A DNA stretch of 35,654 nt from Acidobacteriota bacterium (GTDB lineage: Bacteria; Acidobacteriota; UBA6911; RPQK01; JAJDTT01): assembly GCA_028874215.1 (NCBI GenBank), contig JAPPLF010000023.1, positions 1 through 35,654 of the forward strand, given 5' to 3'. Position 1 is the first letter of the stretch. Each line of letters starts with the position of its first letter. A program made the position numbers and the translations under genes. Under the pieces are notes generated by a model that was not told the origin of the DNA, searched no databases, and saw nothing but the letters and a program-made list of their open reading frames with translations. Of the stretch, positions 8,153-33,219 are shown one piece after another.

Positions 8153-9028
8153 TCAGTACGCTGCCCGCTGAATATAGTCGGAGAAGTCCCGAAAGCTGGG
8201 GATGTACTCGTCGTAGACAAGGTCCTTCCGGGATTTGGGCGTGGAAAAACCCGGACCCAACAGAAGGACCGGAATACGATAGCGATCACAGGCCTCGTTC
8301 AACACCCGGAAACGGCCTTTCAAGTTGGCGCTCAGTCCTTTCCGGGCCAGGACGCAGGCCATGTTCACCGGCTGCTTCTCCACGATTTCGGCCATCGCCT
8401 CGAAGGGAACCTTGCTGCCAAGATTCAGGGCGTCCCATCCTTCTTCGTTCAAGGCCCGGGAGATTCCGTTGACGAGATGGCTGCAGTAGGAGGCAGGCGC
8501 CGCGCAGAGGCCGGTCTTGCCCAGAGGTCTGCGGCGGACCACACCTGGAAAGAAATAGTACAAGGCCTCTTCGAGGTTCTTTTCCACCAGCCGAGCCTGA
8601 CCCAACCGCATGGAATTGGAGGAATGGTTTCCGTGGGAACGGACGAATATGGGGGTCAGCACCTCGTCGTAGAGGTCTGCCACGCTCAATCCACGAATGT
8701 AGAGCCGCTCCAGCAGATCCTTGATCGAAGCGCACTGGTTCTCCGATGCCAGATAGAGGATCAACTCTCTCACCCGTGACCAATTCCTCTGGTTGATGAA
8801 GGTTTCCAATCGGGGGGCCTCCCAATCGGTGGAGGTCAGCAGACCGGTTCCCTCGAATCGGTGGCGAGCCTGAAAGTCCTGGATATGCCGGAGTTGGAAC
8901 CTTCGATGGCCGCCCGGAGTCCGATGGCATTGAAGCTTCCCGGTATCGGTCCACCGTTTGATGGTCGATTCGCTCAAGTTCCAGAGTTGGGCAAGTTCCC
9001 GCGTGGAGTAGATTCGTTTCCTGACCAT
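8153..9028 (-). CDS. MerR-type regulator with degenerate cobalamin-binding-like domain
   Basis: The N-terminal 60 residues form a MerR-type winged helix (STRELAQLWNLSESTIKRW, then RTPGGHRRF), so the protein should bind DNA. Residues about 80-285 resemble the helical cap plus Rossmann fold of CarH/LitR-type light or B12 sensors. Visible elements are a helical part with LYDEVLTPIF, and then a Rossmann-like part with RALNEEGWDALNLGSKVP. By hand alignment, the cobalamin axial histidine of the DxHxxG motif falls on Cys182, with a histidine two residues later. Cobalamin binding is therefore doubtful, and the ligand, if any, is unknown. The gene is monocistronic, convergent with the peptidase, and has its own promoter and a palindrome upstream that suggests autoregulation. 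The HTH assignment is firm; the C-terminal fold is inferred. Confidence 0.8.
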   Translation of the reverse strand: MVRKRIYSTRELAQLWNLSESTIKRWTDTGKLQCHRTPGGHRRFQLRHIQDFQARHRFEGTGLLTSTDWEAPRLETFINQRNWSRVRELILYLASENQCASIKDLLERLYIRGLSVADLYDEVLTPIFVRSHGNHSSNSMRLGQARLVEKNLEEALYYFFPGVVRRRPLGKTGLCAAPASYCSHLVNGISRALNEEGWDALNLGSKVPFEAMAEIVEKQPVNMACVLARKGLSANLKGRFRVLNEACDRYRIPVLLLGPGFSTPKSRKDLVYDEYIPSFRDFSDYIQRAAY

Positions 9029-9064
9029 ATCGGGACGGACGAACCGGAAAAACGAGTGGCTGAG

Positions 9065-9076
9065 CTGGTCGACCAG
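9065..9076. promoter_or_regulatory. Palindromic candidate operator upstream of merR-type gene
   Basis: CTGGTCGACCAG is a perfect 12-base palindrome about 40 bases before the start codon of the MerR-type gene and just downstream of its predicted promoter. This is where a repressor site would lie for autoregulation. A second small inverted repeat, CTCC-G-GGAG (9080-9088), lies next to it. Function is inferred from position only. Confidence 0.35.
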
Positions 9077-9091
9077 AGACTCCGGGAGGGC

Positions 9092-9120
9092 AGACTAGAA
9101 GGTTTCCGCCAGAAAGTCAA
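9092..9120 (-). promoter_or_regulatory. Candidate promoter of the merR-type gene
   Basis: On the minus strand TTGACT (complement of 9115-9120; 5 of 6 matches to the -35 consensus) is followed after exactly 17 bases by TAGTCT (complement of 9092-9097; 3 of 6 matches to TATAAT). Transcription would start near 9085, leaving a leader of about 57 bases that contains the palindrome at 9065-9076. Confidence 0.45.
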
Positions 9121-9232
9121 TTTGAGGAGTTCGGAATAAAACGGCAGGAAAAAACGGGAGATATCCGGCAAGGCGAGGGGGTGGCCGGCGGCAGGTCGAT
9201 GCCCGAGTGAAGGGTGCGATCGGCAGGGCGTT

Positions 9233-10093
9233 TCAGCGGCTTGCGTCTTCGCACAAGAGGTTGTCGATCAGCCGGACTCCGCCGACGCGGATGGCGGCGG
9301 CGGCCCGGGCCGGGCCGCGAACCTCGGAAATGGGCTGCATGGTTTCCGGATCGACCAATTCCAGGTACTCGACCTCGACCAGGGGCTCCCGGCTCAAGAG
9401 CCGGAGTCCGCCGCGGCGGATCCGGCCGGCGTCCCTGGCTCCCTGGAGCACCATGGTCCGGATCTCCTTCAGGGTCCGGAAGAGCACGGCGGCGGCCCTT
9501 CGCTCTTGGGGACCAAGATGTTGGTTCCGGGAACTGATGGCCAATCCGTCGAAGTCCCGAACCGTCGGGATTTGGCGGATGTCCACCGGCAGGTTCAGAT
9601 CCTTCACCAGTTGCCGGACGACCACCGTCTGTTGGGCGTCCTTCTCGCCGAAGTAGGCCCGGTCCGGTTGCAGGATGTTCAGGAGCTTCAGCACGATGGT
9701 GGCGACGCCGCGAAAATGTCCCGGGCGGAACCGGCCGCACAGGTGCGACGTCACGGTCTCGACCTCCACGAAAGTCCTGTGTGTGGCCGGATAGACTTCG
9801 TCGCGGCCGGGCTGAAAGACCAGATCGACTCCCAATTGCCGGCACATGGCGAGATCCGAATCCAGGTCCCTGGGATAGGTGTCGAAGTCTTCTTCCGGAC
9901 CGAACTGGGTCGGATTCACGAAGATGCTCACGGCGAGCCAGTCGCATTCGCGCCGCGCCACCTGGATCAGCTTCCGATGTCCCTCGTGCAGAGCTCCCAT
10001 GGTGGGAACGAAGCCGCTGGACAATCCACCCCTACGGGCGGCTTCCATCGCCTCCCGTGCTCCGGCGATGGAGGTGGCCGCCACCAGGGCCAT
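9233..10093 (-). CDS. panC: Pantothenate synthetase
   Basis: PanC joins pantoate and beta-alanine with ATP to give pantothenate, the precursor of coenzyme A. The 286-residue protein shows the nucleotidyl-transferase signature PTMGALHEGH near the N-terminus, SIFVNPTQFG, the pantoate/ATP-binding stretch GEKDAQQTVVVRQLVKDL and the loop ISSRNQHL. The frame is open further upstream, but family similarity begins at the ATG at 10093. That ATG shares its A with the TGA stop of panB (TGATG). The one-base overlap indicates translational coupling within the sppA-panB-panC run. Confidence 0.96.
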   Translation of the reverse strand: MALVAATSIAGAREAMEAARRGGLSSGFVPTMGALHEGHRKLIQVARRECDWLAVSIFVNPTQFGPEEDFDTYPRDLDSDLAMCRQLGVDLVFQPGRDEVYPATHRTFVEVETVTSHLCGRFRPGHFRGVATIVLKLLNILQPDRAYFGEKDAQQTVVVRQLVKDLNLPVDIRQIPTVRDFDGLAISSRNQHLGPQERRAAAVLFRTLKEIRTMVLQGARDAGRIRRGGLRLLSREPLVEVEYLELVDPETMQPISEVRGPARAAAAIRVGGVRLIDNLLCEDASR

Positions 10094-10944
10094 CAGGATC
10101 TCTCTTTGACCAGCTCCGGCTCGCTGGAACGGAAGAAGTCTGTGGTTCTGGAAGCGGGGAAACGCCCGGTGCGGACGTCGTCGACGTAGGTTTCGGTGGC
10201 GTTCAGGATGGTGCTGCCCAGGGAGGCGTAACGTTTGACGAATGAAGGAACGAAGGAGTCGAAGAGGCCGAAGGCGTCGTAGCTCACCAGGATCTGACCG
10301 TCGCAATAGGGTCCGGCTCCGATTCCGATGGTGGGTATCCGGAGCTGCGACGTCACTTCGAAAGCGACTTCGTCCGGAATGCATTCCAGGACCAGAGCGA
10401 AGACACCGGCATCCTCAAGGGCGTCGGCGTCGGCCAGCAGGCGTGCCACGCTCCCGCGGTCGCGAGCCTGCTGCCGGTGGCCGCCAAGCGCATGCACCTT
10501 CTGTGGGGTGAGACCCAGATGCCCCATGACCGGGATACCCACATCCACCAGGTGGCGAACCGACTTCACCACGGGTCCGGCCCCTTCCACCTTGACCGCG
10601 GAGACTCCACCTTCCTGCATGAGGCGTGCCGCATTGCGAAGCGCCTCGGATGCCGAAACCTGATACGTGGCAAAGGGCATGTCGGCAACCACCAATGCCC
10701 GCCGCGCTCCCCGGGTGACGGCCCGGCTGTGGTGCACCATCATGTCGAGGGTGACCGGCACCGTCGTGTCGCATCCCAGAATCACGGTGCCCAGAGAGTC
10801 GCCCACCAACAGAACGTCGATTCCGGCCCGGTCCAGCAGGGCGGCCATGGTAGCGTCATAGGCGGTGAGTGCGGCGATCTTCTCGCCACGGCGCTTCTTC
10901 TCTTCCAAGTCAGGCACTTTCAATGCTTTACCGTGCTTTGGCAT
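10093..10944 (-). CDS. panB: 3-methyl-2-oxobutanoate hydroxymethyltransferase
   Basis: PanB transfers a hydroxymethyl group from methylene-tetrahydrofolate to 2-oxoisovalerate, giving ketopantoate, the first committed step of pantothenate synthesis. The 283 residues show TAYDATMAALLDRAGID, LLVGDSLGTVILG with a metal-binding Asp, VKVEG with the second acidic ligand, GHLGLTPQ and LVLECIP with the catalytic Glu. The start at 10944 is fixed by a strong ribosome binding site, AAGGAG, eight bases upstream. The longer open frame (to 11052) is therefore not used. The substrate is the keto acid made by IlvD, whose gene is also in this window but about 9 kb away. Confidence 0.97.
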   Translation of the reverse strand: MPKHGKALKVPDLEEKKRRGEKIAALTAYDATMAALLDRAGIDVLLVGDSLGTVILGCDTTVPVTLDMMVHHSRAVTRGARRALVVADMPFATYQVSASEALRNAARLMQEGGVSAVKVEGAGPVVKSVRHLVDVGIPVMGHLGLTPQKVHALGGHRQQARDRGSVARLLADADALEDAGVFALVLECIPDEVAFEVTSQLRIPTIGIGAGPYCDGQILVSYDAFGLFDSFVPSFVKRYASLGSTILNATETYVDDVRTGRFPASRTTDFFRSSEPELVKERS

Positions 10945-26041: not shown

Positions 26042-26069
26042 GTGGGCGCCCACGAGGGGTGTCCCTACG
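26042..26069. repeat. Palindrome and possible dispersed-repeat half at convergent gene ends
   Basis: GTGGGCGCCCAC (26042-26053) is a perfect 12-base palindrome, followed by GAGGGGTGTCCCTACGG. Read on the minus strand, the unit starts CCGTAGGGACACCCC and supplies the TAG stop of the DUF6178-type gene. It looks like half of the short dispersed GC-rich inverted repeats common in some metagenomic genomes. Only one copy is seen in this window, so the repeat nature is unproven. Confidence 0.3.
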
Positions 26070-27339
26070 GTACCTGGGCCGCCTCCAGGTACCGGTCGGC
26101 CCGTTCCAGGTCCGACCGGTTCTTGAGGAACCGCCGCCGCCGCTTTTCCCGGATCTCCACCAGCAGGAGCGGATAGTTCCGGGACAGTTCCGCCAGGGCG
26201 TCAGCCAACGGCGACCCGGCTTCGAGGGAGTCCCGGGCCCGGATCTTTCGGGCCCGGTCGCGCAGTTCCACCAACCGGCTGTAGCCGGTGTGGAAGAAGG
26301 ATTGCAGGTAGTGGCGCCCGAGTCCGTCCCGGGCCCGGTTCAAGTCTCCTTCGGCCCAGACCTCCAGTCCCAGGTTGATGCCGGTGAGCGCCTTGCGGAT
26401 GGCCCGCTTGACCCGGGAGGTCCGGTTGGGAGGGATCCGGTCGGCGGAGAGGATCTTGTTGCAGACGAAGAACAGCTCCTCCAACAGCGGTTCCAGCTCG
26501 TGGGGCCGGGCGAAGGCGGCCATGGCCTGGAAAAGGAGGAGGGGACCCTGCTTCATCCGGGCCACTGGTGAGGGCAGGGTGCCGACGGCTCGCAGTTGGT
26601 CGCGCATTTTCTCCGGAAGCGGCGTCCCCGGAGGCAGATAGGCATACACGTCCAGGGCGTCGAAGTAATCCTGGAAACCCAGGTCCTCGATCCGCCGTTT
26701 CCGATTCTGATAGGCGGCCTCCTCCAGTTCGATGGAGGTGCGGTAGCGGGATTCCTGGATCCAGAGGCGGGTCTCCTCCGGGCCCAGCTCGTACAGCTTC
26801 AAAAGCAGGGCGCGGGCGAGCCGGGATTCCTCCGGATTCCTGGGCAACTGGACCAGGTAGGAGCGGTCCGGGGTTTCCATGAAGTCCCCGTCTGGAGCGG
26901 GACCCGGATCGTCGTCCACGATCTCCTCGAACCTGATCCGGCGTTTGAGCCAGAGTTCCAGGAGTTGCCGGTCGGTGCCCCGGACGATTTTGGCGGCCAC
27001 CGGGTTCTCGGTTTGGATGATCTGTGCCGCCCAGAAGAGGAACTTCCCAGCGTTGGCGCGGTCGCGGTTCCAGAGGTCCAGGTCCAGAACGCCCTGCCAC
27101 TGCGCCTCGGTGATGTGGGGCAACAGCGCCTGGATCCGGTGCTCGCCCAACTCCTTGAGTCCGAAGTAAAGCTGGGGGACGGAAAGGCGCCGAATCCGGG
27201 AGCGGTTCTCCGCCGTCTCCAGAAGACCGGCCAGGTCCACCGGGGCGTAGCAGGTCCGGTAGATGAGTTCGGAAGGACGGCGGAGCCCCACGGAAGCCAG
27301 GGCGGATGCTTTCGGATCCTGATCAGTCACGTTCGTCAT
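26065..27339 (-). CDS. DUF6178-like protein of unknown function
   Basis: The 424-residue protein is soluble and mostly helical. It shows the pattern LYFGLKELGEHRIQALLPHI followed by AQWQGVLDLDLWNRDR, and later IELEEAAYQNRKRRIEDLGF with DALDVYAYLPP. This resembles, from memory, DUF6178 proteins known mainly from Desulfobacterota-like bacteria. No catalytic motif is evident and no function is known. The C-terminal 60 residues are rich in Arg. The ATG at 27339 lacks a ribosome binding site and is the first Met of the recognised part. A GTG three codons later is possible. It is the last gene of the six-gene minus-strand run, 14 bases after the endonuclease V stop. Confidence 0.72.
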   Translation of the reverse strand: MTNVTDQDPKASALASVGLRRPSELIYRTCYAPVDLAGLLETAENRSRIRRLSVPQLYFGLKELGEHRIQALLPHITEAQWQGVLDLDLWNRDRANAGKFLFWAAQIIQTENPVAAKIVRGTDRQLLELWLKRRIRFEEIVDDDPGPAPDGDFMETPDRSYLVQLPRNPEESRLARALLLKLYELGPEETRLWIQESRYRTSIELEEAAYQNRKRRIEDLGFQDYFDALDVYAYLPPGTPLPEKMRDQLRAVGTLPSPVARMKQGPLLLFQAMAAFARPHELEPLLEELFFVCNKILSADRIPPNRTSRVKRAIRKALTGINLGLEVWAEGDLNRARDGLGRHYLQSFFHTGYSRLVELRDRARKIRARDSLEAGSPLADALAELSRNYPLLLVEIREKRRRRFLKNRSDLERADRYLEAAQVP

Positions 27340-27353
27340 TATACGGGAGAGCG

Positions 27354-28022
27354 TTACCGGCTCCCGGTCTGTTTGGCCGCCAGGTTGTGGGCTTGCCGGA
27401 TCGGCTCCGGGAGCCGGTAGCGGGGGGTGACGGCCCGCGTCCAGTTCACGCAGGCTTCCAGGGGCAGCCCGTATCCCACCGAGACGAAGACGGGCCGGAC
27501 CCCGGTGCGGGTGCGCAGGACCACGCCCAGCAGTTCGCGTCCGTCCAACAGGGGACTGAGCGATCCCTTGGTCAACTCCGGCTCCTCGTATTTGCCGCAG
27601 AGGCGGGTTTTGCCCACGCCGATGGTGGGAATCCCGAGCCACAGGCCCAGATGGCAGGCGATTCCGAATCGCCGGGGATGAGCCCGTCCGTGACCGTCCA
27701 CCAGGATCATCTCCGGCGGCGCCGAGAGCCGGTCCAGGGCCTTCAGGATCGGAGGCAGTTCCCGAAAGCTCAGCAATCCGGGGACGTAGGGAAAGGGCGT
27801 GGGTGTGGTGGCCACCGCCGATTCCACGAGTTCCAGGGAGGGGAAGGCAAGGACCGCGACGGTGGCGACGGAGAGGCCGAGCGGGCGGCTGTAACCGACG
27901 TCCACGCCGGCGATTTTTTCCGGCTCAGGCAAGGGAAGGTCAGTATGGATGCGGGAGCGGAGCCGCTTCTGGAGTTGGACCGCCTCCTTTGGAGTGAGGT
28001 CCCACGAGTGCAGCGGTTCCAT
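27354..28022 (-). CDS. nfi: Endonuclease V (deoxyinosine-specific)
   Basis: Endonuclease V nicks DNA one base 3' of deoxyinosine and starts repair of deaminated adenine. The 222-residue protein has the RNase H-like core with metal-binding Asp41 (AGVDVGYS), Glu88 (LSFRELP) and Asp109 (ILVDGHGRAHPRRFG). It also has the wedge motif PYVPG (residues 78-82) that separates the strands at the lesion, and Lys139 in IGVGKTRL. The ATG at 28022 has GGAG about ten bases upstream; the longer frame above it is a shadow. It lies 32 bases after a CehA-type gene and 14 bases before the DUF6178-type gene. Confidence 0.95.
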   Translation of the reverse strand: MEPLHSWDLTPKEAVQLQKRLRSRIHTDLPLPEPEKIAGVDVGYSRPLGLSVATVAVLAFPSLELVESAVATTPTPFPYVPGLLSFRELPPILKALDRLSAPPEMILVDGHGRAHPRRFGIACHLGLWLGIPTIGVGKTRLCGKYEEPELTKGSLSPLLDGRELLGVVLRTRTGVRPVFVSVGYGLPLEACVNWTRAVTPRYRLPEPIRQAHNLAAKQTGSR

Positions 28023-28054
28023 GCAACGGGCTCCGGGTCGAATCGGGGACCGCT

Positions 28055-29680
28055 TCAACGCCGGGGAATGGCCAGCCCCTCTGCGTCGCGGGTATCCCGA
28101 TAGCGTTTCAACCGGGCATGAATGTCCCGGTACCGGTCGCGGATCTCCGGAGTCAGGGCCGAGCGGATGGACCCTTCCAGGCGCGCCAGAATCTGCCCGC
28201 AGGCGTCGTCGTCGAAGGGGAGCCGCCCGCCCACGTCGACGTAGACCGGGTTGGAGTGAGCCTCGGTCCCCGGATCTCCGTAGGCCCTGACACCGACCCA
28301 TCCGCTCCCGGAGACCTGAAGCCTTTCCGCATGGTCCCAGATGCTTCGTCCGTCCGCGTCGAAGTAGCGGGAGACGACCCTGCCGTTCCATATGATTTCC
28401 AGGGTCCGTACCGGATAGAGCGGGCTCCGGACCCGGGCCTCCAACTCCAGGGCGACGGGCTCTCCTCCGGGGAAGTGAAGCGACTTTCCGGGACCCTTCC
28501 CGTTGACCGAGACCAGCAGCATGGGGCCGCTGGTCACGAAGCTGCGTCCCTGGACCACCCCCTCCATAAAGCCGCGCGGCGTCGGTTCCGTCTCCGAGAA
28601 GACGTAGGTGATGCTGTCACCCAGCTCCCGGCTGTAGGGAAAATCGGACGCGCCCACGATGGGCCAGCGGTAACCGAGGTTCAGGAAATCGTACCAGCCG
28701 TCCAGACCCAGGCCCCGGTAACCACCCAGTTGCAACAATTCCAGGAAGTCCGACTTGCCGGTCAGGCCCACGTAGTCCGCCTCCAGGCGGTAGTAGCCGC
28801 CGTGGTTGAGACCCATGTAGCCCCCCAGTTCCCTCGCTTGGTCCCCGATGACGGCCAGTGAGGGGCCCAGGTTGGCGTCGGCGGTCCACCCTGCGGCCGG
28901 AACGTAATCCTTGGCCAAAACGACGGTGACGTGCCCCATGGAGGAGTTGCGGTATTCCTGGCCCGACGACAGGAAATAGCCGCCCCGCCGGACCTCCGAC
29001 GCCGGACCCAGACCGTGGGCCTGGCGCCACGATTCGAACTCCCGGCCCAGGGCGTAACCGCCCGTGTTCATGGACAGGCTGTAGGCATAGCGGATGTCCT
29101 TGGCGGAAGTGAGCACCAGCAGTTGGTCGTCGTTGCTTCCGTCGCGCTCGAAGTGGATGTGGGTGTCGCCGGAGTACCAGCCCAGCTCCGCCATGTCGAT
29201 CCAGCGGGACACGGCGATGGTGGCTTGGCGGACCTCATTCTTCTCCAGCCGGAACACCCGCCGGCTGCGCTGGTATTCGTATCCTTTTCCCACCTCCACC
29301 ACGCAGTGGCCGGGAGGGACCCGGACGCTGACGGAGCCGTCGGTGAAGAAGTAATCGTCGAGCTTCCGAAACCTCATGGGCCCCTGGCGCTCTCCATTGG
29401 TTCGCCGCAGCGAGTAGGCGAGATACGGATCCTGCCGGGGCTCCTGGGTGCCTCCGTTGATGCTGACCGTGGCGCTGACCGGGCGGCCGGTCCGCCCGTC
29501 GACGATCCGAAGCTGGAGCGTCGCGGCGTCGGGGCCGGGATCGGGCAGGGGAGGCGGAAGGGGACGGTGCTCGCTGATCTGGGCGTAGCGGCGCGTCTGC
29601 ATGGAGTGGACGAAGGTCAGAAACAGCAATCCCGCAAAGGGAAGAATCAGCCTCAGGCGTATCCGGCCGGGTCGGCTCAT
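28055..29680 (-). CDS. CehA/McbA-type PHP metallohydrolase, copy 1
   Basis: The 541-residue protein starts with a single hydrophobic signal or anchor helix (about 9-25), then a proline-rich linker. Next comes a carboxypeptidase-regulatory-like beta domain (about 52-155, LRIVDGRTGRPVSATVSING to KGYEYQRS). A PHP-type metallohydrolase domain with GDTHIHF (Asp172, His174, His176), GLNHGGYYRLE and VGASDFPYSRELG follows. CehA and McbA hydrolyse carbamate esters, and many homologues of this secreted type have unknown substrates. It shares the same layout and much of its sequence with the gene just upstream, with the GDTHIHF motif at identical residue numbers. Its ATG overlaps the stop of that gene by four bases. 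Confidence 0.82.
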   Translation of the reverse strand: MSRPGRIRLRLILPFAGLLFLTFVHSMQTRRYAQISEHRPLPPPLPDPGPDAATLQLRIVDGRTGRPVSATVSINGGTQEPRQDPYLAYSLRRTNGERQGPMRFRKLDDYFFTDGSVSVRVPPGHCVVEVGKGYEYQRSRRVFRLEKNEVRQATIAVSRWIDMAELGWYSGDTHIHFERDGSNDDQLLVLTSAKDIRYAYSLSMNTGGYALGREFESWRQAHGLGPASEVRRGGYFLSSGQEYRNSSMGHVTVVLAKDYVPAAGWTADANLGPSLAVIGDQARELGGYMGLNHGGYYRLEADYVGLTGKSDFLELLQLGGYRGLGLDGWYDFLNLGYRWPIVGASDFPYSRELGDSITYVFSETEPTPRGFMEGVVQGRSFVTSGPMLLVSVNGKGPGKSLHFPGGEPVALELEARVRSPLYPVRTLEIIWNGRVVSRYFDADGRSIWDHAERLQVSGSGWVGVRAYGDPGTEAHSNPVYVDVGGRLPFDDDACGQILARLEGSIRSALTPEIRDRYRDIHARLKRYRDTRDAEGLAIPRR

Positions 29681-31374
29681 CTCGATGCCGCTCCTTTTGC
29701 GGCGACCGGCCCCGCGGCGGACCGGCTTGCTTCAGCCTCTGCGATCCGGGCGGCGGAGGGTAGCGCCAAGCCTTGCGGATCGCCGGTATCCCGGTAGCGG
29801 GCCAGCCGGTCCCGGAGGGTCCGGACCCGGGCCAGCACGCTCTTTGCGGGAATGGCGCGGAGGGAGGAATCCAGCCGGGCCAGAATCTGGCCGCAGGCGT
29901 CGTCGTCAAAGGGGAGCTTGCCGTCGAGATAGACGTAGACGGGATTGGTGTGGGCTTCGGTCCCGGCGTCGGAATAAGCCCTCACCGCCACCCAGCCGCT
30001 GGAAGAGGCTTCGATCCTGCGGCTCAGTTCCCAGTGGGATCGGCCCTCGGCGGCGAAGGCCCGCGACACAACGCGTCCGTTCCGGATCAGGTCCACGTAT
30101 CGGACCGGATAAAGGGGACTGGAGACTCGGATCTCCACTTCCAGCTCCAAACTGGTTTTCTCCTTCGCCAGGATCGACTCTCCCGGCCGCTTCCCGTTGA
30201 CGGTGACCAGGAGCATGGGCCCGGAGGTGGCGAAGCTTTCCCCCCGGAGCAGGCCCTCGATGAACCCTCGGGGGGTGGGGGGCTCGGAAGCCCGCACATA
30301 AGTGATGCAGTCCCCCAATTCGCGGGTGGCCGGGTAGTCGGAGGCGCCCGCCATGGGCCAGCGGTAGCCAAGATTCAGGAAGTCGTACCACCCGTCCAGA
30401 CCGAGCCCCCGATACCCTCCGAACTGGAGCAGTTCCAGGAAGTCCATCTTTCCCGAAAGAGCCAGGGAGTCCGCCTCCAGGCGCGTGTAGCCGCCGTGAT
30501 TGAGACCGATCACTCCCCCCAGTTCCCGAGCCTGGTCGCCGATGACCCCCAGCGACGGCCCCCTGTCGGTGTTCGGGGTGTGACCGGTTCCCGGGACGTA
30601 ATCCCGGGCCATGAGGATGGTCACATGCCCCAGGGTCCGGGTCCGGTACTCCTGGCCGGAGGTGAGGAAGTAGGGGCCTCGATTGCGGATCGAGCCGTCG
30701 CCCAGGCCGTGGGCCTGATGCCACGACTCGAAAGCTCCGCCCAACGAGTAGCCCCGCGTGTTCATGGAGAGGCTGAAGGCGTAGCGAATGTCCCGGGCCG
30801 AGGTCAGCGTCAGCAGGCTGTCGTCATTGGTTCCCGTGCGGTCGAAGTGGATGTGGGTGTCCCCGGAATACCAGCCCAGAGCGGCCATGTCGATCCAGCG
30901 GGAGAGGGTGACGGTGGCGTCCAGGATCTGCCCCGGATCCAGTTCGAAGGTGCGGTGCGACGGAACGTATTCGTAGCCCTTGCGCACCTCCACCGTGCAT
31001 CGTCCTGGCGGCACCTTCAGGCTGAGGGTGCCGTCGGTGTAGAAGTAGTAGCTCAGCGGACGGAACCGGATCGGTCCCTTGTGCCGGTTGGCCGAACGCC
31101 TCAGCGAATGCTCCAGGTAGGCCTCCTCACCCTCGACGGCTCCTCCGTTGACGCTCACGGTGGCGCTGACGGGAGTATCCGATCCTCGCTCCACGATCTT
31201 CAGATTCAGGGTCGCCGCGTCGGCTCCGGCCTCCACCGGAGGAGGAGGCGCCGGGGCCGGCACTTCGATCTGACGGTGGCGGCTCAGTTGCATGGAGTAG
31301 GCGAACGAGATCAGGAGGCTGCCCAGAAACAGGATCCGGAGTCGTTTCACGGCCGGACGGGTCGGGCTCGTCAT
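29677..31374 (-). CDS. CehA/McbA-type PHP metallohydrolase, copy 2
   Basis: The 565-residue paralogue of the preceding entry lies immediately upstream in the operon. It has an N-terminal anchor (about 11-28), a Pro/Ala linker, a regulatory-like beta domain with VPPGRCTVEVRKGYEY, and a PHP domain with GDTHIHF (His174, His176). GLNHGGYTRLE, GASDYPATRELG and the late SGPMLLVTVNGK follow. The C-terminus carries an extra Ala-rich tail of about 25 residues absent from copy 1. The substrate is unknown. It is expected outside the cytoplasm, anchored to or released from the inner membrane. Its start is 19 bases after the hexokinase stop, so co-transcription is likely. Confidence 0.82.
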   Translation of the reverse strand: MTSPTRPAVKRLRILFLGSLLISFAYSMQLSRHRQIEVPAPAPPPPVEAGADAATLNLKIVERGSDTPVSATVSVNGGAVEGEEAYLEHSLRRSANRHKGPIRFRPLSYYFYTDGTLSLKVPPGRCTVEVRKGYEYVPSHRTFELDPGQILDATVTLSRWIDMAALGWYSGDTHIHFDRTGTNDDSLLTLTSARDIRYAFSLSMNTRGYSLGGAFESWHQAHGLGDGSIRNRGPYFLTSGQEYRTRTLGHVTILMARDYVPGTGHTPNTDRGPSLGVIGDQARELGGVIGLNHGGYTRLEADSLALSGKMDFLELLQFGGYRGLGLDGWYDFLNLGYRWPMAGASDYPATRELGDCITYVRASEPPTPRGFIEGLLRGESFATSGPMLLVTVNGKRPGESILAKEKTSLELEVEIRVSSPLYPVRYVDLIRNGRVVSRAFAAEGRSHWELSRRIEASSSGWVAVRAYSDAGTEAHTNPVYVYLDGKLPFDDDACGQILARLDSSLRAIPAKSVLARVRTLRDRLARYRDTGDPQGLALPSAARIAEAEASRSAAGPVAAKGAASR

Positions 31375-31393: not shown

Positions 31394-32707
31394 TCAATCG
31401 TCCGCCCGGGCTTCCACTGCCGAAGAGGCCAGGGCGGCGCCGATTCCGGACCCGTCCTTGACCAGACGGCATTCTATCCGTTCGGCCCGGGATCCGAGGA
31501 CATTTCGGAACATCCGGCGCATGGCTTCCGGATAACCTGGAGCGTGTTCGAACAGCGAGCCGTCCACGGTCATCACGTGGTCATCCTCCAACTCCGGATC
31601 GGCCCACTCCGCCGTGGCGATCATGGCCAGCGCACTGAGTTGTGCCGACCGCCTCAGGATCATCCGGGCCAGAGAGACCGCCTGCCGCCGCTGCTCCAGG
31701 CCATTATCCACCACGCCCGACCTTTCCAGGAAGCGGCGGGTCTCGGGCAGGCCGCCCGCATCCGCCGCCAGGTGCGAGAGGTCCTCCGCGCCCACGGCGC
31801 CCCGCTCTCCGAAGCTCCCCAGCGGATGGATCCCGGCCAAGAGCCGCCGAAGAAGCCCCCCCAGGTAGCGGCCGGCCACCATCTTCTCGAACCGTTGCTG
31901 TCCCGGATTTCGGGACCGCGAGTCCAGGTCCCGGTCGACGGGCGTGAGGACCCGGTTCCGAAGCGGGCCGAAGTCGAAGTTGCCGCACTCGAAATTGATG
32001 GCCGTGGACCCGAGCCAGGCGGCCAGGTTGGTTCCGGTCCCCAGGATTCCCCCGGCGAGGGTCCGGCGGTCCTGGAAATATCCCAGGATCAAGGTTCCCA
32101 CCGTGTCGTTCAGCAGGACGTTGACCTTCACTCCTTGCAGACCGGCCTCCCGGCAGGCCCGGGCCAGTTCGGGGACCGGATCCCGTCCCACCAGGTCGGG
32201 CAGGTCCCACTCCTTGGTCCATTTCAGGAGGACGCCCCGGTCCGCCGACTCCATGCGGGTGGGAAAGGCGAAGGTGAACCCCACCCGGAGGCCGGAGGCG
32301 GCGACCTCCTCCTCCTCCAAAGTCCGGGCGATGCCGCCGGCGAGGAATCGAAAGAGGTCCCGGGAATGGACCTGGTGACCCGCCTCTCCCCCCTTGAGCT
32401 TCGAAGGAATGGGAAAGACCCGGATTCGGGGGCTCCCGGCGAGACTTTGATCCGGGTCGACCGAGAGCACCACTACCCGGAAGTTGGTGCCGCTCAGGTC
32501 CAGACCCACGTAGGTTCCGGGGTGGAAACGGGCCGTTTTGGGAATGAAGGTCCGGATCATGGCCAGGGAACCGGAGCGGTCCGCCGCCAGTCCCAAGTCC
32601 ATCTGACGCTTGAATTCATCGATGATGGAACGGGCCGTCGCCAGCGTTGAAAGGTCCCAACTCCGGGCCGGGGAACCGTCTTCTGCGGGGTGGGAAACCA
32701 AATTCAC
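31394..32707 (-). CDS. Eukaryote-type hexokinase
   Basis: This 437-residue protein belongs to the hexokinase family typical of eukaryotes (Hexokinase_1 and Hexokinase_2 domains), not to the bacterial ROK or Glk types. It phosphorylates glucose or a similar hexose with ATP. Seen are the phosphate-1 loop YVGLDLSGTNFRVVV (about 66-80) and the FTFAFPT segment with Thr164-Lys165 in WTKEW. Also present are Asn200-Asp201 with the catalytic Asp in LLNDTVGT, the GTGTN loop, Glu240 in INFECGNF, and Glu274 in GQQRFEKMVAGRYLG. All expected sugar-binding residues are present. The frame is open further upstream. I start at the GTG at 32707, which overlaps the dinB-like stop as GTGA and leaves the usual N-terminal helix. 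Confidence 0.88.
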   Translation of the reverse strand: MNLVSHPAEDGSPARSWDLSTLATARSIIDEFKRQMDLGLAADRSGSLAMIRTFIPKTARFHPGTYVGLDLSGTNFRVVVLSVDPDQSLAGSPRIRVFPIPSKLKGGEAGHQVHSRDLFRFLAGGIARTLEEEEVAASGLRVGFTFAFPTRMESADRGVLLKWTKEWDLPDLVGRDPVPELARACREAGLQGVKVNVLLNDTVGTLILGYFQDRRTLAGGILGTGTNLAAWLGSTAINFECGNFDFGPLRNRVLTPVDRDLDSRSRNPGQQRFEKMVAGRYLGGLLRRLLAGIHPLGSFGERGAVGAEDLSHLAADAGGLPETRRFLERSGVVDNGLEQRRQAVSLARMILRRSAQLSALAMIATAEWADPELEDDHVMTVDGSLFEHAPGYPEAMRRMFRNVLGSRAERIECRLVKDGSGIGAALASSAVEARADD

Positions 32708-33219
32708 ATTCCCGGCGGGTTCTCGTCGGCCGAGGGACCGTAGAGGGCGGGGACCGGGATGTCGTTCAGGCGCAGGTAGACTCCCAGTTGGGCGCGGTGG
32801 TGAATCAGGTGATTCATGACGAAGCTCCGCAATACCGCGATTTTGGGCATGCTGAATATGGTGACGCCGTTTTTGAGGAGCGACCAGGGCAACAGGAAGG
32901 CCGCGTCGTCGGCGCCGGCGATGGAGGCGCGCGCCTCCCGGACGTGCTGGTCGAATTCGGCGAGCATCTGGTCCACACTCGTGGGAGCCGGGGGTTGCGG
33001 GAGGGGTTTCCCATCGGGCATGAGGTCCAGCTCGTCCTCCTGGATGGTGAGGGTGGCCCAATAGGGGATGTTGGCCAGGTGACCCGCCAGCCAGATCATG
33101 CTCCCGGACCTGGCGTGGGGTTTCCAGTCGAACCGGTCTTCCGGAACCCGCTCCAGGGTCCTGCGGGCGCCGTCCATCTCCTGGTCGAACTCGGGCAACA
33201 AGGCTTCGCTGATGGACAT
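32704..33219 (-). CDS. DinB-family four-helix protein
   Basis: This 171-residue protein of the DinB/DUF664 superfamily is a four-helix bundle that usually binds a divalent metal through three histidines. Candidates are the His in WLAGHLANI and two in MNHLIHHRAQLG. Members act as thiol-dependent transferases or hydrolases (for example bacillithiol or mycothiol S-transferases), but many have no known role. GGAGGT eight bases before the ATG at 33219 fixes the start over the longer open frame. It opens the six-gene minus-strand run; its stop overlaps the hexokinase start. It is divergent from murB with 107 bases between the starts. Confidence 0.85.
   Translation of the reverse strand: MSISEALLPEFDQEMDGARRTLERVPEDRFDWKPHARSGSMIWLAGHLANIPYWATLTIQEDELDLMPDGKPLPQPPAPTSVDQMLAEFDQHVREARASIAGADDAAFLLPWSLLKNGVTIFSMPKIAVLRSFVMNHLIHHRAQLGVYLRLNDIPVPALYGPSADENPPGM

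Follow-up and report, generated by a model that had tools for sequence, protein, structure and literature searches.

The Acidobacteriota genus from which this DNA comes carries a hexokinase of the PF00349/PF03727 families in which all seven sugar-contact residues are intact, the gene order around the gene is conserved, and the core of the protein is under strong evolutionary constraint. Within that core, the serine that other members of the family carry in a well-studied active-site motif is replaced by alanine (Ala147), and two further alterations, a serine in the first phosphate loop (Ser72) and a shortened loop, accompany it. We lean, if narrowly, toward an active ATP-dependent hexokinase whose use of glucose would be weakened and whose preference would be shifted to fructose or another hexose. 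Throughout, the window denotes the whole stretch of 35,654 nucleotides that was analysed. The gene has these coordinates:

31394..32707, minus strand: hexokinase-family gene (translation of 437 amino acids, GTG start, TGA stop; PF00349 and PF03727)

Both hexokinase domains occur in the expected order and above the curated Pfam cut-offs, with PF00349 (Hexokinase_1) over residues 24–208 (E 7.6e-40, 137.3 bits against a cut-off of 24.3) and PF03727 (Hexokinase_2) over residues 221–428 (E 8.6e-41, 140.3 bits against 24). At E-values up to 0.001 these two families alone matched the 437-residue protein, leaving no match to ROK (PF00480) or Glk (PF02685), and no NCBIfam model matched it at E-values up to 0.1. 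Matches in the Protein Data Bank comprised 46 distinct sequences, the animal enzymes HK1 and HK2 at the top and the plant and yeast enzymes next. The Pfam domains and these matches bear out the original prediction that the protein belongs to the hexokinase family; its coordinates were correct as well, and to them we add the strand (minus), which had not been given.

The active site was compared in a 20-row alignment (three rows from the genus, 11 from other bacteria, and six from eukaryotes, namely animals, plants, and fungi) and in a second alignment (A1) of the 14 bacterial rows (three genus, 11 other). The relevant positions are as follows:

32213..32218, minus strand: Thr164-Lys165, sugar-contact residues (both alignments)
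32105..32110, minus strand: Asn200-Asp201, sugar contact and, as we presume by homology for Asp201, catalytic base (invariant in the 14-row alignment)
32027..32041, minus strand: GTGTN phosphate-2 motif with the sugar-contact residue Asn227 (Asn invariant in the 14-row alignment)
31985..31990, minus strand: Glu240-Cys241 (translation and 20-row alignment)
31886..31888, minus strand: Glu274, sugar-contact residue (invariant in the 14-row alignment)
31556..31567, minus strand: VDGS motif, residues 381–384 (kept, 20-row alignment)
31445..31456, minus strand: DGSG adenosine-side motif, residues 418–421 (kept, 20-row alignment)
32477..32503, minus strand: phosphate-1 loop LDLSGTNFR, residues 69–77, with Ser72 in place of the first Gly of GG
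32267..32269, minus strand: Ala147 of FAFP, at the position of AtHXK1 Ser177 and yeast Hxk2 Ser158
32014..32015, minus strand: junction of the shortened loop (20-row alignment)

All seven sugar-contact positions are kept (Thr164, Lys165, Asn200, Asp201, Asn227, Glu240, and Glu274), and among them only Thr164 varies in the 14-row alignment, and that slightly; translation and alignment put those that had been named beforehand, together with Cys241, exactly where they were predicted. In human glucokinase, Asp205 and Glu290 have roles of this kind. The roles of its Asn204, Asn231, Glu256, Thr168, and Lys169 are reported in PMC3531626.

Three features set the genus apart. All 17 other rows have D-x-G-G in the phosphate-1 loop, whereas the three genus rows have DLSG or DMSG; Ser72 occupies the place of the glycine just before AtHXK1 G104, and the equivalent of G104 itself is retained as Gly73. 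At the FSFP/FSYP site of phosphoryl transfer, a serine is present in all 17 other rows (as FSFP, FSYP, or FSFA) and Ala147 in 3/3 genus rows. Finally, the distance from GTGTN to NFE (the NxE motif) is 10 residues in each genus row versus 14–29 in the 17 others, among which the Catenovulum row is also short (14 residues). Shortly past ECGNF, the genus rows have about four residues more than the 11 other bacterial rows of the 14-row alignment. The effects of Ser72 and the short loop are judged from sequence alone; a structure prediction from the three-row alignment reached a mean pLDDT of 35.3 and a pTM of 0.28.

The original prediction had looked to Cys241, in place of the usual Trp, as a possible key to sugar specificity. 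That position varies, with Ser in 10 and Ala in one of the 11 other bacterial rows, Trp in four of the six eukaryotic rows, and Tyr in the remaining two (the yeasts), and the lead is thus a weak one. Ala147, Ser72, and the shortened loop, which were missed at the time, appear more telling.

The replacement at Ala147 has a direct counterpart among engineered enzymes. In Protein Data Bank entry 4qs9, AtHXK1 has Ala at the equivalent place, corresponding by offset to Ser177, and we presume this entry to be the S177A mutant. AtHXK1 S177A thus carries the same change as the genus, and the site of AtHXK1 G104D adjoins that of Ser72; these mutants are engineered, however, the related plant hexokinase-like proteins belong to plants, and the G104 equivalent is kept here. 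G104D and S177A are both reported to lack activity while retaining glucose sensing (PMC6306471), both are reported as completely inactive once purified (Feng 2015, as quoted in PMC6306471), and both alleles are likewise termed catalytically inactive in PMC13345567 and PMC3594732. For yeast Hxk2 S158A, PMC6306471 (citing Kraakman 1999) gives a residual Vmax of 10% with glucose as the substrate and 50% with fructose. The dispute over a requirement for catalysis in hexokinase signalling turns on Ser177/Ser158, and PMC6306471 presents both views; that paper also reports that inactive mutants of KnHXK1 and OsHXK7 did not support signalling.

Selection on the gene was estimated as dN/dS by the Nei-Gojobori method in the three pairwise comparisons among the three genus genes. 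The whole gene gives 0.19–0.24, and the adjoining DinB and CehA1 genes described below give 0.18–0.27 and 0.13–0.21. Residues 141–290, where Ala147 and the seven sugar-contact residues all lie, have a ratio of 0.057–0.083, residues 21–140 (including Ser72) one of 0.23–0.35, and residues 291–434 one of 0.17–0.23. The core of the hexokinase, with Ala147 in it, is under strong selection, which argues against a decaying pseudo-enzyme and fits a kinase and a sensor alike.

On the reading that we narrowly prefer, a PF00349/PF03727 hexokinase, established in a single Acidobacteriota genus and encoded second in a likely operon, would bind a hexose in a closed cleft and transfer phosphate with Asp201 as the base. 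Because the active site appears remodelled (Ala147 for Ser, Ser72 for Gly, and a short loop after GTGTN), low glucose turnover would be expected, with fructose or another hexose gaining in relative preference. We infer catalysis from the presence of both domains, all seven contact residues, the VDGS and DGSG motifs, and a constrained core that includes Ala147, as well as from the partial activity of yeast Hxk2 S158A and the activity of a Bacteroides hexokinase on three sugars (see below); the shift in preference would follow by analogy with the yeast Hxk2 and AtHXK1 mutants. Against an active kinase speak the reported inactivity of purified AtHXK1 S177A and the second change that Ser72 adds in the phosphate loop.

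The metabolic setting also weighs against it. A ROK-family kinase is present in four of the four genus genomes, so glucose phosphorylation need not depend on the hexokinase gene, whose product does not stand out as the principal glucose kinase of the cell. The ROK copy of the window's genome has the ROK glucokinase subfamily as its best NCBIfam model (165.8 bits, under the cut-off of 260.35); a second ROK fragment, covering profile positions 201–290 with a TGA inside, adjoins the intact ROK gene (G000:C64:11082-13185). Glk (PF02685) was found in none of the four genus genomes, and the window's 97.5% complete genome gave no match to the phosphoglucose isomerase family PF00342, compared with matches in 12 of 14 control genomes. 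Four PfkB-family matches occur in the window's genome. The Pfam and NCBIfam matches of the neighbouring genes point to no sugar pathway.

The main rival, which we hold to be possible though unlikely, is that the protein is a noncatalytic or nearly dead hexokinase kept to bind hexose as a sensor or to act in regulation, in the manner of AtHXK1 S177A or the plant hexokinase-like proteins. Sugar would close the cleft, and in its closed form the protein would act on a putative partner, perhaps encoded in the same operon. Ala147 matches the AtHXK1 allele reported to be inactive with glucose signalling kept (PMC6306471, PMC13345567, and PMC3594732), Ser72 replaces a glycine present in all 17 other rows beside the G104 position, the sugar-contact core is strongly constrained, and the stem leading to the genus is long (1.87 and 1.5 changes per site in the two trees below). 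On the other hand, Asp201, Lys165, and the nucleotide-side VDGS and DGSG motifs are kept and not obviously needed by a pure sensor, the yeast S158A enzyme is reported as impaired in part only, and the inactive KnHXK1 and OsHXK7 mutants are reported not to support signalling (PMC6306471). A more specific version, in which the Ser-to-Ala and the phosphate-loop Gly-to-Ser changes were fixed and selected for a hexose-binding regulator of its own operon (a natural signalling hexokinase), strikes us as distinctly unlikely.

More doubtful still is an ordinary hexokinase of broad specificity, comparable to that of Bacteroides, in which the active-site variation would be neutral or compensated elsewhere. 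It would agree with the seven preserved sugar-contact positions and with the reported activity of the Bacteroides enzyme on glucose, mannose, and glucosamine, and the roughly four extra residues after ECGNF (relative to the 11 bacterial rows) might offset the short loop. Yet none of the 17 other rows shows Ala147, Ser72, or the short loop, and the Ser-to-Ala change is reported to impair both AtHXK1 and yeast Hxk2.

The hexokinase that we take, by a narrow preference, to be an altered but active kinase sits among the following genes:

32704..33219, minus strand: DinB-superfamily gene (PF12867, DinB_2, E 1.7e-10), whose stop overlaps the hexokinase start
29677..31374, minus strand: CehA/McbA-family metallohydrolase 1 (CehA1; NF038032, E 2.1e-47), next gene downstream of the hexokinase
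28055..29680, minus strand: CehA/McbA-family metallohydrolase 2 (CehA2; NF038032, E 1e-43)
27354..28391, minus strand: endonuclease V (PF04493, E 2.8e-67, match over residues 144–335), whose frame overlaps that of CehA2
26065..27642, minus strand: DUF6178 protein (PF19676, E 9.3e-70, match beginning at residue 140)

The true start of endonuclease V probably lies further inside its open frame, and that of the DUF6178 gene may do so as well. The hexokinase GTG start overlaps the DinB TGA stop, as had been predicted, with four bases in common (GTGA), and the same overlap recurs in two genus relatives read in frame (L011 and L012). Upstream, the hexokinase frame stays open to 611 amino acids, for the sole reason that the DinB gene happens to be open in an additional frame there.

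A single PF00349/PF03727 hexokinase gene occurs in the window's genome (5.7 Mb, 113 contigs, 97.5% complete), and the gene was found in three of the four genomes of the genus. In all three, the order DinB, hexokinase, CehA1, CehA2, endonuclease V, DUF6178, with divergent MurB-MurA, is the same. The hexokinase (GC 0.665, GC3 0.806) falls within the range of the other neighbouring genes. The earlier view of a settled operon member rather than a contaminant therefore holds, given the overlap with the DinB stop and the order conserved in every genome having the gene. The run from DinB to DUF6178 is likely an operon with the hexokinase as its second gene, and its members would be transcribed together.

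In the fourth genus genome (G001), contig C97 begins inside CehA at residue 99 and carries no hexokinase, and DinB is absent too. Loss of the hexokinase there was considered and dropped, as an assembly gap is simpler. The two tandem CehA/McbA-family genes directly after the hexokinase (28055–31374, minus strand) are about 62% identical, and with CehA1 as the query the window's genome gives 12 matches. In one relative (G003), CehA2 (L049, G003:C374, about 8758–10333) lies in two pieces in different frames, possibly through an assembly fault because the copy of this contig in L011 has unknown residues there. The same taxonomic order also includes G006 and G012. Both genomes possess CehA homologues and no hexokinase, and the stretches examined (14 and 9 kb) contain none of the other window genes.

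Hexokinases in bacteria are already known, and the surprise expressed in the original prediction at meeting a eukaryote-type enzyme is not warranted. Bacteroides and two spirochaetes were reported in 2006 to have hexokinases, in a clade clearly apart from the eukaryotic sequences, whose own branching the tree resolved poorly (PMC1665464). The purified enzyme of Bacteroides caccae (INE72_RS21610) phosphorylates glucose, mannose, and glucosamine (PMC11300592, 2024); it shares its name and bacterial origin with the present protein, as does HexA of Bacteroides fragilis, and we infer from the name that it belongs to the same Pfam family. In our sampling, PF03727 matched six of 396 genomes of the phylum and four of 38 in the window's class (the window's genus included in both) and eight of 142 in the class of G170, these genome sets overlapping. 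None of the 14 named control genomes matched.

Relatives also occur on plasmid records of Parabacteroides, Catenovulum, and Entomospira. Three different queries returned the same four records, of which the two from Entomospira have the same gene coordinates, and one was used. Among viral contigs no relative was found (0/46 pattern stretches), nor was any found among phages. A scan of genome contigs with one protein query, which reaches less far than a profile and so limits the bacterial sampling, gave two relatives among 62 pattern stretches; these (L011 and L012) are the G003 and G002 contigs and were counted once. On the 672-kb plasmid of Catenovulum adriaticum (L014 1714-5332), the hexokinase-family gene is annotated as a hypothetical protein and has a trehalase-family gene on one side and an AGE-family epimerase on the other. 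That of Entomospira culicis (L015 2914-4251), annotated likewise, shares a 98-kb plasmid with gyrA, nfo, and a threonylcarbamoyladenylate synthase gene.

These relatives resemble the genus enzyme to different degrees. The annotated hexokinase of Parabacteroides (L013) has the same contact residues at 27% identity but differs in the Ser of FSYP, the Gly-Gly of the phosphate loop, a longer loop, and NANL for DGSG. Acidobacteriota hexokinases from other families (G170, G322, G455, G456, and G032) have the same two domains and the DGSG motif at 32–35% identity, whereas they show D-x-G-G, FSF, ESG, and a longer loop. Animal HK1/HK2, plant HXK1/HXK6, and yeast Hxk1/Hxk2 belong to the same family by sequence and have the same sugar-contact residues; unlike the genus, all six lack Ala147, Ser72, and the loop shortening. 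Some genomes of family f54 in the same phylum (L018, L019, and L020) have another kind of hexokinase, which carries DSPL for DGSG and groups with the Entomospira and Bacteroidota rows, giving two kinds within one phylum.

The origin of hexokinases has been placed in early eukaryotes (PMC12696579, 2025). Our tree holds the 20 rows of the main alignment; protists are missing, and the G459 gene, being in two pieces, was excluded from alignment and tree. The genus forms a clade with 100/100 support on a long stem of 1.87 changes per site. It falls in one half with the eukaryotes and the acidobacterial families f64 and f10, opposite the Bacteroides/spirochaete type (branch 100/99), and its position inside that half has no support (42/35 and 38/34). 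A branch with 77/94 support separates the eukaryotes from the other rows. When four long or odd rows were dropped, the eukaryotes remained on one side (82/90) with the genus clade outside and a stem of 1.5. The trees are to be read with the program's warning of long branches meeting and with three eukaryotic lineages, which are too few.

Alternative groupings were compared by approximately unbiased (AU) tests. Holding the genus with the acidobacterial rows (p 0.525), f64 (0.524), or G032 (0.33) is allowed, and holding it with the Parabacteroides, Catenovulum, Entomospira, and f54 rows costs nothing (0.507) despite the 100/99 branch. Grouping with all six eukaryotes gives 0.122, with fungi 0.116, with plants 0.031, and with animals 0.021; since these are eight uncorrected tests, some chosen after the first tree, the rejections for animals and plants are nominal. 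With 16 rows, the values are 0.077 for eukaryotes and 0.413 for f64.

A gain from a eukaryote, as suggested originally, finds no support in the tree. That a eukaryotic gene was acquired by this bacterial lineage, a matter of origin compatible with any of the functional readings, seems very improbable: the half shared with eukaryotes away from the Bacteroides/spirochaete type and the surviving groupings with all eukaryotes or fungi would favour it, but animals and plants are nominally rejected, acidobacterial or Bacteroides/spirochaete groupings are no worse a fit than the free tree, the eukaryotic side of the comparison is limited to six rows (animals, plants, and fungi), and GC and GC3 are host-like. 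Recent acquisition from an animal or a plant appears unlikely. An older link to the eukaryotic enzymes, in either direction, is possible, the deep position being without support in the trees.

In the open-access literature, a search that was not exhaustive found no description of a naturally fixed Ala at the FSFP serine together with a Ser in the phosphate loop. A natural Ala at the Ser177/Ser158 position, held under strong selection, suggests that this state has been useful over evolutionary time, and the genus offers a small bacterial system for asking whether the protein is a kinase of low turnover, one with a different sugar as its substrate, or a sensor. The hexokinases of the Acidobacteriota, patchily distributed and diverse, further bear on the source of the eukaryotic enzyme. 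Were the sensor reading true, a bacterium would have naturally fixed the very change that uncouples glucose sensing from catalysis in plants.
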